A stretch of DNA of 64,000 nucleotides from Pseudoflavonifractor sp. AF19-9AC (GTDB lineage Bacteria; Bacillota; Clostridia; Oscillospirales; Oscillospiraceae): contig NZ_QUGI01000003.1 in the NCBI RefSeq assembly GCF_003478995.1, forward strand, positions 377,203 to 441,202, written 5' to 3'. Positions within the stretch are counted from its first letter, which is position 1. Every line of letters starts with the position of its first letter. Below the pieces are notes generated by a model, which saw nothing but the letters and a program-made list of their open reading frames with translations, was not told the origin of the DNA and did no database searches. A program made the position numbers and the translations under genes. Below, in pieces: positions 59,332 through 63,953 of this stretch.

Positions 59332-59360
59332 ATTATACAAGAATATAGTCCCGATTGCAA
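59332..59360 (-). promoter_or_regulatory. Promoter of leuS
   Basis: Minus strand TTGCAA (59360-59355), 17-bp spacer, TATAAT (59337-59332). Confidence 0.75.
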
Positions 59361-59397
59361 GGGCCGGACCGGAAAATTCGCCTTTCCCCTCCCTTTC

Positions 59398-59427
59398 TTG
59401 ACGGGCAGACTGTTTTTGTGATAGTAT
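59398..59427 (+). promoter_or_regulatory. Promoter of the ModE-like/MobA-like pair
   Basis: TTGACG (59398-59403), 18-bp spacer, TAGTAT (59422-59427). Confidence 0.6.
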
Positions 59428-59495
59428 CGTTATGTTCCCATTCCAATAACGGCTCCGCCCCGGGCGGCTGCCTGACGAAAGGAAGCGGACCGACC

Positions 59496-59885
59496 ATGAA
59501 AGTCAAACTGAAAGTCACCCTCTGTACCGACGACGGGGAGCGCCTGTTCGGCGAGGGCCCCTATCAGCTTCTCTCAGGCGTGCAGGAGCTGGGAAGCCTC
59601 CGAGCCTCCGCCCAGCGCATGGGCATGGCTTATACCAAAGCCTTCCACATGGTCAAGCATGTGGAGGAGGCCCTCCACATGCCTCTGACCCAGCGCACCA
59701 TCGGCGGCCGGGGCGGCGGCGGGAGCACCCTCACCCCGGAGGGGCAGGAGCTGCTGAAACGCTACGAGGCCTATCGAACCGCCTGCGATCAGGCCGCCCA
59801 CGACCTGTATCGGCAGTACATGGGGGATTTTGCCCCTCCGCAGGAATCCCAGTCGGCCCGGGAGGATCTGCCCCATCAGGCCTGA
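59496..59885 (+). CDS. ModE-type winged-helix regulator lacking molybdate-binding domain
   Basis: 129 residues. The N-terminal HTH_1 domain (about 10-105) follows ModE: GPYQLLSGVQELGSLRASAQRMGMAYTKAFHMVKHVEEAL, then the wing TIGGRGGGGSTLTPEGQELLKRYEAY. The molbindin (TOBE) domains of full ModE are missing, and the C-terminal 25 residues are polar. Single-domain ModE-like proteins are common in Clostridia near molybdenum genes. ATG 59496 has AAAGGAAG. It precedes the MobA-like gene by 35 bases, so it probably regulates molybdenum or selenium/purine-related genes. Confidence 0.85.
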   Translation: MKVKLKVTLCTDDGERLFGEGPYQLLSGVQELGSLRASAQRMGMAYTKAFHMVKHVEEALHMPLTQRTIGGRGGGGSTLTPEGQELLKRYEAYRTACDQAAHDLYRQYMGDFAPPQESQSAREDLPHQA

Positions 59886-59920
59886 GGGCACGGCACCCTT
59901 CCCCCATCAGGAGGTCATTT

Positions 59921-60517
59921 ATGAAACTTGGCTGTGTGGTGCTGGCGGCCGGACGGGGCGTCCGGTTCGGCGGCAACAAACTGATTTATCCCCTGGCCGG
60001 GCGGCCGGTGCTGTCCCGGGTGCTGGGCAGTCTGCCCCGGGAACAGCTCTCCTCCCTTGTGGTGGTGGCCAGCTCCCCGGAGGTGGTGCAGCTTTGCCGG
60101 GAGGCGGACACTCCCTGTCTCTGCTACGAGGGGGGGCCCCAGAGCGACAGCATCCGGCTGGGAATCGGCGCCATGGCGAGGACAGACGGCTGTATGTTTG
60201 TCATGGGGGATCAGCCCCTGTGCTCCCGCCGGAGTATGGAGCGGCTGCTGGAGACCTTTCGTTCCCAGCCGGAGGCAGTGGTCCGTCTGTCCTTTCAGGG
60301 GCGGCCCTGCAGCCCGGTCCTCTTCCCCAGTCGCTATTACCCCAATCTGGCCTCGCTCACCGGGGAACAGGGCGGCATTGCCGCGGTGCGCCATCTCAAC
60401 CCCACCTTCCGTTTCGTGGAGGCGGAGGAGGAGGCTGAGCTGTGGGACACCGACACCCCGGAGGAGCTCAACCACATCGAACATTACCTATTCAAAAAAG
60501 AAGGACGTGCCCCCTGA
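59921..60517 (+). CDS. MobA/MocA-like nucleotidyltransferase
   Basis: 198 residues, NTP_transf_3 fold. The N-terminal nucleotide motif is LAAGRGVRFGGNKLIYPLAG, with the L-A-A-G-x4-G-x2-K signature. The metal-binding Asp is in FVMGDQPLCS, and GRPCSPVLFP follows. MocA-type enzymes attach CMP to molybdopterin; MobA uses GMP. The sequence is too divergent to decide, and it could serve a xanthine-dehydrogenase-like enzyme not in this window. ATG 59921 has CAGGAGG. The gene end overlaps its terminator stem. Confidence 0.8.
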   Translation: MKLGCVVLAAGRGVRFGGNKLIYPLAGRPVLSRVLGSLPREQLSSLVVVASSPEVVQLCREADTPCLCYEGGPQSDSIRLGIGAMARTDGCMFVMGDQPLCSRRSMERLLETFRSQPEAVVRLSFQGRPCSPVLFPSRYYPNLASLTGEQGGIAAVRHLNPTFRFVEAEEEAELWDTDTPEELNHIEHYLFKKEGRAP

Positions 60518-60538
60518 GGGGCACGTCCTTCTTCTTTT
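60498..60538. terminator. Bidirectional terminator between MobA-like and HAL-like genes
   Basis: AAGAAGGACGTGCCCCCT pairs with AGGGGCACGTCCTTCTT, with A- and T-rich ends on both sides. It contains the MobA-like stop codon. Confidence 0.85.
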
Positions 60539-60546
60539 ATTGTTTT

Positions 60547-62067
60547 TTAGTTCAGAGGACCCACCACGCCCTCCACCAGCTTCACAAGCTCGCCGGAGTG
60601 GATGAGATCGCGCAGGTACTCGATGTGGGGATGGAGGAACATGTCCTCCTTCATGACAGGCACGTGCTCCCCAATCTCCCGGAGCAGCTTGGCCGTGGCC
60701 GGGCTGCGGGAGAGCTTCTCGTCCAGGAACTGCTGGGCCTGGAAGCCGGAAAGCAGCTCGATGGCCAGGATGTACTCCAGCTTCTCCACCACCTGAATGG
60801 CCTTCTTGGAGGCATTATAGCCCATGGCCACATAGTCCTCCTGGTTGCAGCAGGTGGGAGTGTTGTCGATGACCGCTGGAGTGGACAAAATCCGCATGTC
60901 GTTGAGGAGGCCCGCCTGGCCATACTGGGGAATCATCAGGCCGGAGTTGAGGCCGGGGTTGCTGATGAGGAAGGCGGGGTAACCGGAGAAGGCCTCGTCG
61001 ATGATGCGGTTGTTGCGCCGCTCGGACATCTTGGCCAGCATGGTGCAGGCAATGGAGGCGCTGTCCATGGCCAGGCCCACATAGGAGGAGTCACAGTTGC
61101 AGGCGGAAATCACGTCCGCATCGTCCCCCATGTCCCAGATAATGGGGTTGTCGCAACAGGAGTTCATCTCGATCTCAATGGTGCCCTTGGCGTCGTAGAA
61201 GGCCTTCTTGGAGGCGCCGTGGAGCTGGGGGATGCACCGCAGGGACAGGGCGTCCTGAAGGCGGGTGCCCTCGTAGTGCTTCAGCACCTCCGAACCGGCC
61301 AGAATCCGGCGCACGTTGTCCGCGCTGCCGTCCTGCTCCTTGTGGGGCCGCACCGACATGACCCGGGGGTCAAAGGCCCGCATGACGCCCTTCAGCACCT
61401 CCAGGGAAACGGAGCCAATGACGTCAGCGGCCTTGGCCGCGTTGATCATGTCGTACAGGGCCAGACTGGCCAGAGCCGTCACCGAGGTGGTGCCGGAGAC
61501 CAGGGCCAGGCCCTCCTTGGCGGCCAGAGGTATGGGTTCCAGGCCCGCCTTCTCCAGGGCGGCCTTGCCGGGCATCAGCTCGCCCTGATAGTAGGCCTGT
61601 CCCTCGCCGATGAGCACCAGGGCCATGTGAGCCTCGGGAGACAGGTAACCCACCGAGCCCTCCCGGGGCATCCAGGGGGTCACGTCCCGGTTAAGCATCT
61701 CCCGCAGCAGCTCCAGCACCTCCAGGCGCACACCGCTGTGTCCCTGGCCCACATTCTGGAGCACCATGAGCATGGTGGCCCGGGCCTGCTCTTTGGTATA
61801 GGGCTCGCCCACGGAGATGGAGTGGGAAAGGACAATGTTCCGCTGCAGCTGCTGAGCCTCCTCCTTGTTGATAACCCGCGTGCTCAGAGAGCCAAAGCCG
61901 GTGGTGACGCCGTACATCACCCGGTCCTCGCTGATGGCCTTTTCAATGAGCTCACGGGCACGGCTGACTCGGCTGCAATAATCGGGGGAAAATGCCACCT
62001 CTGCCCCAAAACGGGCAATCTGAATAAACTGCTCCAGATTCAACGGAGCACCCAGTGTGATAACCAT
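60547..62067 (-). CDS. Histidine-ammonia-lyase homologue lacking the MIO triad (copy 1)
   Basis: 506 residues, clearly of the HAL/PAL family: Tyr52 in MYGVTTGFG, LQRNIVLSHS, IGEGQAYYQGE, QDALSLRCIPQLHG, MNSCCDNPII and CCNQEDYVAMG. Yet the cofactor loop, normally GSVGASGDLAPLAH, reads GSVG (137-140) directly followed by YLSPEAH: exactly three residues are missing, including all of Ala-Ser-Gly that cyclises to MIO. The ING-T-Q motif is VSGTTSV (Asn replaced by Ser191). A classical ammonia-lyase reaction is therefore unlikely. Start ATG 62067 has GAAGGAGG; a longer frame to 62151 lacks a site. It is divergent from copy 2, with 368 bases between. Confidence 0.88.
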   Translation of the reverse strand: MVITLGAPLNLEQFIQIARFGAEVAFSPDYCSRVSRARELIEKAISEDRVMYGVTTGFGSLSTRVINKEEAQQLQRNIVLSHSISVGEPYTKEQARATMLMVLQNVGQGHSGVRLEVLELLREMLNRDVTPWMPREGSVGYLSPEAHMALVLIGEGQAYYQGELMPGKAALEKAGLEPIPLAAKEGLALVSGTTSVTALASLALYDMINAAKAADVIGSVSLEVLKGVMRAFDPRVMSVRPHKEQDGSADNVRRILAGSEVLKHYEGTRLQDALSLRCIPQLHGASKKAFYDAKGTIEIEMNSCCDNPIIWDMGDDADVISACNCDSSYVGLAMDSASIACTMLAKMSERRNNRIIDEAFSGYPAFLISNPGLNSGLMIPQYGQAGLLNDMRILSTPAVIDNTPTCCNQEDYVAMGYNASKKAIQVVEKLEYILAIELLSGFQAQQFLDEKLSRSPATAKLLREIGEHVPVMKEDMFLHPHIEYLRDLIHSGELVKLVEGVVGPLN

Positions 62068-62330
62068 TCCGTTCTCCTCCTTCAAACTGCCTGAGAAATT
62101 CCTTCCGCAGTCCTGTGTACGTGGGCCACGAATGCCGAACACTCCGCCCACGCTATTGCCTTTATACTAATCCTTTTTTGTGGAAACATCCAGTCTTTTT
62201 CTTTGATTTTTCAAAAATCATCGTTTTTTCTCCTTCTCCCCCCTGTTTCTCTTCGGTTCCTTCCTTTTTTCTCCCTTTGGCCCTTCCAAATCCTTTGGTG
62301 CTGGTTTTTCCTGAAATCGTGAAAAATCAG

Positions 62331-62359
62331 GTGACTTTTCGACGCTTTTGTTGTATAAT
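62331..62359 (+). promoter_or_regulatory. Promoter of HAL-like copy 2
   Basis: GTGACT (62331-62336), 17-bp spacer, TATAAT (62354-62359). The -10 is perfect and the -35 weak, suggesting an activator or moderate strength. On the other strand a possible -10 (TATAAA, about 62168-62163) for copy 1 has no good -35. The remaining intergenic region is AT-rich and pyrimidine-rich on the plus strand. Confidence 0.55.
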
Positions 62360-62369
62360 GAATTAAACT

Positions 62370-62399
62370 ATGCTGGGTGCGTCCATAAGTACCCGGCAT
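62370..62399 (+). promoter_or_regulatory. Leader hairpin of HAL-like copy 2
   Basis: ATGCTGGGT pairs with ACCCGGCAT across a 12-base loop, about 11 bases downstream of the -10. It could be an operator or RNA structure; it lies 37 bases before the start codon. Confidence 0.4.
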
Positions 62400-62435
62400 T
62401 CAATCTGCTAACGCGGAAACGATGGAGGAATTTAC

Positions 62436-63953
62436 ATGAGTGATACGCTGATTCTCAACGGCTCGAATTTGACTTTGGAAGATCTCAATGACGTGGTCTA
62501 TCGCGGCCGCAAGGTCCAGATTGATCCCGATGTCATTCCCCGGGTGAAGGCTGCCCGTCAGGTGCTCTTTGATCTGGCTGCCACCGGCCAGCCCGTTTAC
62601 GGCCTGAACCACGGCGTGGGCTGGAACAAAGACCGGGAGTTCAGCCAGGACTTCTTCGAGCAGTACAACCGCAACCTTATTAACAGCCACTCTCTTGGCA
62701 TCGCCCCTTACTGCAGCGTAGAGGAGGTCCGGGCCATGCTGTGCATCCGCCTGAACACCGCCCTGTGCGGCTGCACCGGTATCTCCCTGAACATTCTGGA
62801 GATGTACCAGGAGTTTTTGAACCGGGGCATCCATCCCCGTGTCCTCCGCCGGGGCGCCGTGGGCGAGGGTGACGTGAGCACCCTGCCCCTCATCGGCCAG
62901 ACTATCATCGGTGAGGGCGAAGTGGAGTACCACGGCAAGATCGTCCCCTCCATCGAGGCTCTGCGGGCCGAGGGTATAGAGCCCGCCATTCTGGGCCCCA
63001 AGGACGGCCTGTCCATCGCCTCCTCCAATGCCCAGGGCGAGTCTCTGGTGGTCATGCTGGTGAAGGAGACCGAGGAGATCATCAAGCTGTCCAACGTCAT
63101 CTACTGCATGGGGCTGGAGGGCCTCAACGGCGGACTGCAGCCCCTGGGTGAGGCGGTCAACGCAAAGCGCGGCCTGCCCGGTCAGATGCGCTGCGCCGCT
63201 GACTGCCGCCGCTACCTCCAGGGCAGCTACCTGGAGCAGCCCGATCCCAAGCGCGCCCTGCAGGACCCCCTGTGCTACCGCTGCGGCGCCGCCATCAACG
63301 GCTCGGTGGTGGATGCGCTGGAGTTCGTGAAGCAGTATCTGGAGCTGCAGATCAACCGCACCGACGATAACCCCTGCATCCTTGTGGAGGAGAACAACAC
63401 CTCGGTGAGCCCCAACTTTGAGACCACCACCCTAGCCCTGGGTGTGGATATGCTGGCCGCCGCCCTGTGCCACATGTCCCAGGCCATCACCAACCGCCTC
63501 ATCAAGATCGTGGCCCCAGTGTTCACTGGCCTGCCCCGCTTCCTCACTCCCCACGAGGTGAAGACCATCGCCTACTCCACCATGCAGAAGACCTTTGCCT
63601 CCCTCCACGCAGAGAACCGCTGGCTGGCCAACGTGACCACCCTGGATATGGTGCCCATTGCCGGCGGCATCGAGGACCACGCCTCCGGCCTGCCTCTGGC
63701 TGCTATGCGTACCCTCCAGATCGTGGACAACCTCCGGTACATGCTGGGCATGGAAGCCATGCACGCCGCCCAGGCCACCGATATGCGGGGTGACATCGCT
63801 CTGGGTAAGGTCACCGGTCCGGTGAAGGCCAAGTTCCGCCAGGTCATCCCCTATCTGGACAAGGACCGCAATCTGAGTCTGGACATCGAGGCCGCCTACC
63901 AGTGCATCCGCAGCGGCGAGCTGCTCAAGGCCCTGGAAGAAGCGGACCGCTGA
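62436..63953 (+). CDS. Histidine-ammonia-lyase homologue lacking the MIO triad (copy 2)
   Basis: 505 residues. Family features: Tyr55 in VYGLNHGVGWN, LINSHSLG, IIGEGEVEYHGK, LQDPLCYRC and RTDDNPCI. The loop that should read G-S-V-G-A-S-G-D instead reads GAVGEGDVSTL (140-150): Ala-Ser-Gly is replaced by Glu-Gly, one residue shorter, and the conserved His of LAPLAH is Gly. The NALNG motif is SNAQGES. The C-terminal NQED-like site is GIEDHASG. It is distantly related to copy 1, not a recent duplicate. ATG 62436 has GGAGG eight bases upstream. A partial hairpin near 63980 may be the start of a terminator cut by the window end. Confidence 0.85.
   Translation: MSDTLILNGSNLTLEDLNDVVYRGRKVQIDPDVIPRVKAARQVLFDLAATGQPVYGLNHGVGWNKDREFSQDFFEQYNRNLINSHSLGIAPYCSVEEVRAMLCIRLNTALCGCTGISLNILEMYQEFLNRGIHPRVLRRGAVGEGDVSTLPLIGQTIIGEGEVEYHGKIVPSIEALRAEGIEPAILGPKDGLSIASSNAQGESLVVMLVKETEEIIKLSNVIYCMGLEGLNGGLQPLGEAVNAKRGLPGQMRCAADCRRYLQGSYLEQPDPKRALQDPLCYRCGAAINGSVVDALEFVKQYLELQINRTDDNPCILVEENNTSVSPNFETTTLALGVDMLAAALCHMSQAITNRLIKIVAPVFTGLPRFLTPHEVKTIAYSTMQKTFASLHAENRWLANVTTLDMVPIAGGIEDHASGLPLAAMRTLQIVDNLRYMLGMEAMHAAQATDMRGDIALGKVTGPVKAKFRQVIPYLDKDRNLSLDIEAAYQCIRSGELLKALEEADR

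Follow-up and report, generated by a model that had tools for sequence, protein, structure and literature searches.

In histidine ammonia-lyase (HAL, the product of hutH; EC 4.3.1.3) the electrophile 4-methylideneimidazole-5-one (MIO) activates the substrate and lets ammonia leave. Ergothionase splits ergothioneine into trimethylamine and thiourocanate and is described as an enzyme without MIO in excerpts of a 2026 paper (PMC13405746). The present analysis concerns two genes, copy 1 and copy 2, in a 64,000-nucleotide stretch of Pseudoflavonifractor sp. AF19-9AC (assembly GCF_003478995.1, contig NZ_QUGI01000003.1, positions 377,203 to 441,202 of the forward strand; hereafter the window), originally predicted to encode a divergent pair of ammonia-lyase-family proteins that both lack the MIO-forming triad. 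The pair probably represents two betaine trimethylamine-lyases built on the HAL fold, copy 2 being an ergothionase and copy 1 most likely a lyase of hercynine. The family of copy 2 is thus already known, and copy 1 would be a MIO-free variant of betaine trimethylamine-lyase, most likely for hercynine. The two genes are divergent, with start codons 368 bp apart, and are placed as follows.

60547 to 62067, minus strand: copy 1, MIO-free HutH-like protein of 506 aa, predicted hercynine (histidine betaine) trimethylamine-lyase
61642 to 61659, minus strand: copy 1 loop, residues 137-142, GSVGYL, against GSVG-Ala-Ser-Gly-Asp-Leu in HutH (from the alignment; position counted from the start of the open reading frame)
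62436 to 63953, plus strand: copy 2, very probable ergothionase (ergothioneine trimethylamine-lyase) of 505 aa, matching PDB 6s7j
62853 to 62873, plus strand: copy 2 MIO-less loop, residues 140-146, GAVGEGD (from the sequence; SSIGEGD at this place in 6s7j)

Both genes are intact, MIO-free and of full length, as had been proposed. The reading frame of copy 1 is open from an ATG at 62067 to a stop codon ending at 60547 (a further upstream GTG at 62151 would give 534 aa), that of copy 2 is likewise open over its full length, and both proteins match the family model PF00221 along nearly the full extent of the model (549 bits for copy 1 and 403 bits for copy 2). The MIO-forming Ala-Ser-Gly is missing from both: the loop reads GSVGYLSPEAH in copy 1 and GAVGEGD in copy 2, compared with, for example, GSVGASGDLAPLAH in HutH. 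Against the HutH loop GSVGASGD the family alignment places three gaps in copy 1, which bears out the earlier count of three residues gone, and one in copy 2. A sequencing error or a pseudogene was considered as the origin of the copy 1 loop and rejected, given that GSVGYL recurs in 120 of 120 homologues that are 66-98% identical to copy 1; these are the best 120 of the 4909 proteins that a search with copy 1 returned at E<=0.001 among 7997 scored candidates. The GEGD of the copy 2 loop is also present in ergothionase 6s7j, which speaks against a sequencing error there.

Copy 2 is very probably an ergothionase. Its best match among PDB sequences is 6s7j, the ergothionase of Treponema denticola (606.6 bits, E=2.9e-181, residues 3-497), to which it is 54% identical over 495 residues, and the next PDB match reaches 226 bits. 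In a tree of 25 rows made with FastTree the protein shares a branch with 6s7j; it has the MIO-less GEGD loop of 6s7j and 6s7q, which has one residue fewer than HutH, and scores 329.6 bits to the hutH equivalog TIGR01225, below the cut-off of 539.15. Since it groups with a published ergothionase, the idea that copy 2 stands for an orphan subfamily has to be given up; the published assignment, which counts against the original prediction, covers this half of the pair only. Among 14 stretches holding relatives of copy 2, the ergothionase gene is accompanied by a carrier gene of the betaine/carnitine/choline transporter (BCCT) family and by a molybdenum hydroxylase gene of the xanthine dehydrogenase (XDH) type in six (L143, L145, L146, L149, L150 and L151). 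Two ergothionase-type reading frames (L139 and L140) encode 643 and 646 aa, about 140 aa beyond copy 2, which may reflect the choice of start codon or an N-terminal extension, and one contig of 26 kb (L141, genome G027) holds three ergothionase-type and two molybdenum hydroxylase genes.

For copy 1, the fate of the remaining active-site residues was followed in the family alignment, which comprises 158 of 161 rows (three rows shorter than 481 aa were omitted, including two cut fragments, L091 and L092, of a HutH-scoring paralogue with GSLGSSD). Its groups were defined by loop motif, rows with neither motif were assigned to the ergothionase group, and the MIO rows L163, L169 and L173, which are not HutH-like, were kept out of the HutH column. 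HAL numbering was taken as an offset from Ser143 and agrees with the PDB mutant titles D145A, Y280F and F329A. Both copies retain Tyr53, Arg283 and Glu414 of HAL, so that the N-terminal catalytic Tyr is kept as first described, and copy 1 retains His83 and Gln277 as well. The loss of the catalytic Asn from copy 1 also holds: Asn195 is replaced by Ser, in copy 2 too. Tyr280, of which the original prediction made no mention, is Leu in both copies, and Phe329 is changed in copy 1. In HutH-like rows Asn195, Tyr280 and Phe329 are each present in 36/36, whereas copy-1-type rows have Ser at 195 in 76/98, Leu at 280 in 93/98 and Ala, Pro or Cys at 329 in 93/98; Tyr53, Arg283 and Glu414 are each present in all 98. 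Ergothionase-type rows have Leu280 in 21/21, Ser195 in 15/21 and Phe329 in 21/21, together with Tyr53 (21/21), Arg283 (20/21) and Glu414 (21/21). The residues of HAL serve in binding of the carboxylate and the ring and in the surroundings of MIO and the amino group, and the counts by row group indicate that the carboxylate- and ring-binding parts stay and that the MIO and amino-group surroundings go.

An AlphaFold model of copy 1 (mean predicted local distance difference test score, pLDDT, 83.4; predicted template modelling score 0.89) resembles HAL and ergothionase, with Foldseek template modelling (TM) scores of 0.90 to HAL 1gk3 and 1gkj and 0.86 to ergothionase; pLDDT falls below 50 at residues 52-62, 366-368, 370-372 and 406-408, which are partly active-site loops. 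Copy 1 thus has the fold of HutH together with its Tyr53, His83, Gln277, Arg283 and Glu414, and is at a median of 39% identity to HutH in the family alignment, but differs from it in the absent MIO triad, in the changed positions 195, 280 and 329, and in its score to the hutH equivalog TIGR01225 (523.1 bits, just below the cut-off). To ergothionase 6s7j/6s7q it is similar in fold, in the absence of MIO and in the replacement of Tyr280 by Leu, but it is only 28% identical to 6s7j and has lost three loop residues rather than one. Given that copy 1 passes the cut-off of NF006871, a 'histidine ammonia-lyase' subfamily (528.4 bits, just above 524), automatic annotation could misname it as that enzyme. 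A different departure from the triad occurs in genomes G014 and G010, where a normal HutH with GSLGASGD adjoins a tandem paralogue with GSLGSSDLAPL or GSLGSSDLSPL (L091 and L092); this paralogue lacks one residue of the MIO triad but still scores 611-614 bits to hutH, above the cut-off.

In a tree of 56 of the 161 rows, built by a quick method, with groups named by loop motif and with L163 on a very long branch, the copy-1-type rows lie on one side of a branch with a Shimodaira-Hasegawa-like approximate likelihood ratio support (SH-aLRT) of 97, and the ergothionase-type rows do likewise with a support of 100. Copy 1 stands outside the ergothionase-type branch in this tree (support 100) and in the tree of 25 rows. 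In the best tree copy 1 groups with MIO rows, and an approximately unbiased (AU) test did not reject the alternative in which both MIO-free families fall together (p-AU 0.44), so that one loss of MIO and two losses are indistinguishable.

The neighbourhood of copy-1-type genes was surveyed in the best 80 of 377 relatives, which were obtained in a contig scan with an alignment of 19 sequences; neighbours were counted by tblastn. By record title the relatives come from Clostridia-type bacteria, Sporomusa, Acidaminococcus, bacilli, Acinetobacter, a deltaproteobacterium, a spirochaete metagenome-assembled genome and others. In 58 of these 80 loci the best copy-1-type gene has a BCCT gene no more than 1 kb away, and in 61 there is one anywhere in the locus (an example protein matches PF02028 with 378.7 bits), and BCCT carriers typically transport quaternary amines. 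True HutH genes served as controls: of 20 regions, several of them cut by contig ends, one (L213) held no HutH and was not counted, and none of the remaining 19, from 16 of the same genomes, has a BCCT gene within 1 kb of HutH. Three of the 19 do hold a BCCT gene, in each case beside a copy-1-type gene (L196 with L073; L209; L210). Of 52 genomes, 38 have BCCT and copy-1-type genes side by side, where random placement of BCCT genes would give about 0.2, and in genomes with a single BCCT gene it is that gene that adjoins copy 1 in 17 of 24. At nine further loci (L029, L030, L033, L034, L040, L046, L048, L056 and L065) a symporter of the SSF type takes the place of BCCT, and eight of these nine also encode a conserved small protein, about 181 aa long; no NCBIfam model matched its L030 member.

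The second recurrent neighbours are genes of histidine breakdown, hutU (urocanase) and hutI (imidazolonepropionase), which lie near the copy-1-type gene in 16 of the 80 loci. The gene order is BCCT-copy1-hutU-hutI-hutG in L077 and L079 (the HutG of L077 scores 228.0 bits against a cut-off of 229.15) and hutU-hutI-hutG-BCCT-copy1 in L078 and L080. In Acinetobacter celticus (L068) it is hutC-(HutD-like)-hutU-hutI-hutG-(glutamate dehydrogenase-like)-copy1-BCCT, where the HutD-like reading frame was named by eye and the glutamate dehydrogenase-like gene is below its cut-offs. Scored as urocanate hydratase, the HutU proteins of L077, L078 and L068 reach 984-1019 bits; with the models for the thiourocanate and S-methyl-thiourocanate enzymes they reach 689-730 bits, below the cut-offs of 930 and 880. 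Those of L007, L040 and L042 score 425-429 bits, above the hutU cut-off of 375 (L019 is a cut fragment at 317), and that of L030 is above the urocanate hydratase cut-off; all four are below the thiourocanate and S-methyl-thiourocanate hydratase cut-offs. Given that HutU scores as a urocanate hydratase, the product of copy 1 in these operons would most simply be urocanate, and a urocanate product together with a betaine-family carrier points most simply to hercynine, the trimethyl betaine of histidine, as the substrate. Copy 1 itself falls in a branch of 13 rows (support 88) with the hut-linked L019, L048, L068, L077 and L079.

Operons with hutU, hutI and hutG would also suit a MIO-free histidine ammonia-lyase that acts on plain histidine by another mechanism, and the similarity of copy 1, which is highest to HutH, is in keeping with this, as is the genome of A. 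celticus (G006), a possibly incomplete assembly, in which no HutH above cut-off was found, only a 385-bit relative with Ala-Ser-Gly (L163). However, this is very improbable for three reasons: first, a MIO-type HutH is also present in 16 of the 17 genomes examined (the 16 with hut-linked loci and that of L036), so that copy 1 is not the sole histidine-type lyase there, and the genomes of L077 and L079 each carry hutH-hutU-hutI in an operon apart, with HutU proteins 77% and 69% identical, respectively, to those of the copy-1 operons. Second, the neighbouring BCCT carriers typically transport quaternary amines. Third, the positions that surround MIO and the amino group in HAL have changed together. 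Plain histidine was set aside as the preferred substrate on account of these 16 genomes.

With hercynine as the substrate, copy 1 would convert N-alpha-trimethylhistidine into urocanate and trimethylamine, the urocanate then being broken down by HutU, HutI and the enzymes that follow them in the Hut pathway, and copy 2 would convert ergothioneine into thiourocanate and trimethylamine. In copy 1, Arg283 may grip the carboxylate and Glu414 the imidazole, Tyr53 would act as the base on the beta-carbon, and the trimethylammonium group would occupy the space vacated by MIO, Tyr280 and Phe329. Because a quaternary trimethylammonium departs readily as neutral trimethylamine, no electrophile would be needed. 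The earlier suggestion of non-MIO chemistry in a shared pathway is retained in this form as the best reading, and that of a pure binding role appears unlikely given the kept Tyr53, Gln277, Arg283 and Glu414 and the catabolic operons of the relatives. A more specific proposal, for which the case is evenly balanced, is that copy 1 belongs to a second family of trimethylamine-lyases without MIO, so far undescribed and hercynine-specific, in which MIO was lost independently of its loss in ergothionase. This family would occur in Clostridia, Negativicutes, Bacilli, Acinetobacter and a deltaproteobacterium, partly in dedicated operons for betaine import and Hut functions. Among the openly licensed PMC papers listed in literature searches, no title or abstract opening names a hercynine lyase, and one may have been published elsewhere.

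Several observations weigh against this assignment. The 80 loci are mutually related and their counts are not independent; only 16 of them have nearby hut genes, and 19 have no BCCT gene, of which nine hold an SSF-type symporter instead and ten hold neither. The loop counts in the alignment hold by construction, leaving only the other positions as evidence, and of the 98 copy-1-type rows 21 retain Asn195 and four Tyr280. Score alone misleads: a paralogue in L102 with GSVGYLQPGAH reaches 543.7 bits, above the hutH cut-off. Several loci (e.g. L004, L047 and L050) have two copy-1-type paralogues, so that more than one substrate is conceivable within the subfamily, and copy 1 may use another betaine. 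The window itself stops 47 bp past copy 2, which leaves a thin local context, and searches of it at E 1e-3 with one query each for BCCT, SSF symporter, hutU, hutI and molybdenum hydroxylase genes came back empty. A molybdenum hydroxylase gene may lie outside the window, as one accompanies ergothionase in several relatives.

The paralogues raise the possibility that the trimethylamine-lyase substrate of copy 1 is a different betaine, aromatic or imidazole-based, such as S-methyl-ergothioneine, ergothioneine sulfonate, tryptophan betaine or phenylalanine betaine, or that the subfamily is mixed and copy 1 falls among its other kinds. Most loci do have BCCT without hut genes (61 against 16 of the 80), as such a spread of substrates would allow. 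This is nevertheless rather unlikely, given that the HutU of L077, L078, L068, L007, L040, L042 and L030 fits urocanate hydratase and not the thiourocanate-type models, that Glu414 is retained in every copy-1-type row, and that copy 1 shares its branch with hut-linked loci. Two copy-1-type genes stand in tandem or near each other in L004, L023, L026, L029, L035, L047, L048, L050, L054, L059, L061, L064, L071 and L075; the members of a pair mostly differ in the loop (e.g. SPEAHM and CAEAHI) and possibly act on different betaines.

The relation between the two copies was examined in the same loci. An ergothionase-type gene lies near the copy-1-type gene in 6 of the 80, both on one strand in all six, and the divergent layout of the window was not seen in those six. 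Of the genomes with a copy-1-type gene, 13 of 40 also hold an ergothionase-type gene above 300 bits. In the family of genome G019, ergothionase was found in 0 of 300 genomes (E 1e-100) and a copy-1-type gene in 2 of 300 (E 1e-150), which makes both rare in that family, and no close relative of the locus in the window was found among these 300; the same query did match in other genomes. The fullest association is in Acidaminococcus massiliensis (L146, from the genome of L036), where FTCD genes, copy 1, a molybdenum hydroxylase, ergothionase and BCCT stand in one row. As judged from sequence, the window offers one example of an association between two putative betaine lyases that recurs, though only in a minority of cases. 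The adjacency of the two genes, together with the sharing of active sites between subunits in this family, would suit the earlier alternative of one hetero-oligomeric enzyme, or of copy 1 as a non-catalytic regulatory or binding partner. This part of the original prediction is highly improbable and was rejected as the default: the copies are 27% identical, 74 of the 80 copy-1-type loci, several of them short, have no ergothionase-type gene, as is the case at 300 bits for most of the 40 genomes, and copy 1 keeps Tyr53, Gln277, Arg283 and Glu414 and has relatives with operon partners of their own.

A further link between the copies would be a molybdenum hydroxylase that strips ergothioneine of its sulfur to give hercynine, which copy 1 would then cleave in parallel to the ergothionase route. 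Molybdenum hydroxylase genes occur in 7 of the 80 copy-1-type loci, where the one in L080 matches weakly (26%) and sits at the edge. Such genes also adjoin ergothionase in L143-L146 and L149-L151, and genes similar to those of molybdenum metabolism (MocA-like and ModE-like) adjoin copy 1 in the window. This scenario adds a step and, though compatible with direct hercynine cleavage by copy 1, has very little probability, as in L143-L145 and L149-L151 the hydroxylase stands beside ergothionase with no copy-1-type gene in 20 kb, which fits an action on thiourocanate better, and neither hydroxylase nor ergothionase accompanies the copy-1-type and hut genes of L068-L070, L073 and L077-L079.

If copy 1 is a hercynine lyase, a source of trimethylamine from hercynine lies hidden in databases as histidine ammonia-lyase, and the HAL fold dispenses with its electrophile for a quaternary leaving group. 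The subfamily would then be a natural test of the purpose of MIO, having the same fold, Tyr53 and binding residues and no electrophile, and it flags a set of proteins that are likely misnamed histidine ammonia-lyase. Trimethylamine made by gut bacteria becomes trimethylamine N-oxide (TMAO), which makes every producing enzyme relevant to TMAO studies. Of the trimethylamine-releasing enzymes already described, the carnitine monooxygenase CntAB is a Rieske-type oxygenase, with a fold and chemistry unrelated to the copies. CntAB and the choline trimethylamine-lyase CutC, the latter a glycyl radical enzyme that is likewise unrelated to the copies in fold and chemistry, are named as bacterial sources in excerpts of two papers (PMC13405746, PMC11353897), and the Acinetobacter carnitine cluster also includes a BCCT carrier, according to an excerpt of the second (PMC11353897). 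In people who have taken in ergothioneine, hercynine is reported as a main metabolite in the urine (PMC7653990), so that a hercynine lyase in bacteria might open another route to trimethylamine. The 2026 paper, in the excerpts at hand, calls ergothionase rare on the basis of a BLAST search that returned proteins named HAL, PAL or TAL, and allows that divergent homologues may be missed (PMC13405746).

The remaining features around the pair are the following.

59355 to 59885, plus strand: ModE-type DNA-binding protein, context gene (TIGR00637, 64.8 bits, below the cut-off of 98.5)
59921 to 60517, plus strand: MocA-like NTP transferase (molybdenum cofactor cytidylyltransferase-like), context gene (TIGR03310, 123.8 bits, below the cut-off of 186.45)
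60498 to 60533: terminator-like stem of 16 pairs with a T-rich tail, between the MocA-like gene and the 3' end of copy 1 (consensus match only)
62068 to 62435: divergent intergenic region, with a sigma-70-like site at 62331-62359 on the plus strand (consensus match only)

The ModE-like and MocA-like genes, which together span 59355-60517 of the window, directly adjoin copy 1.

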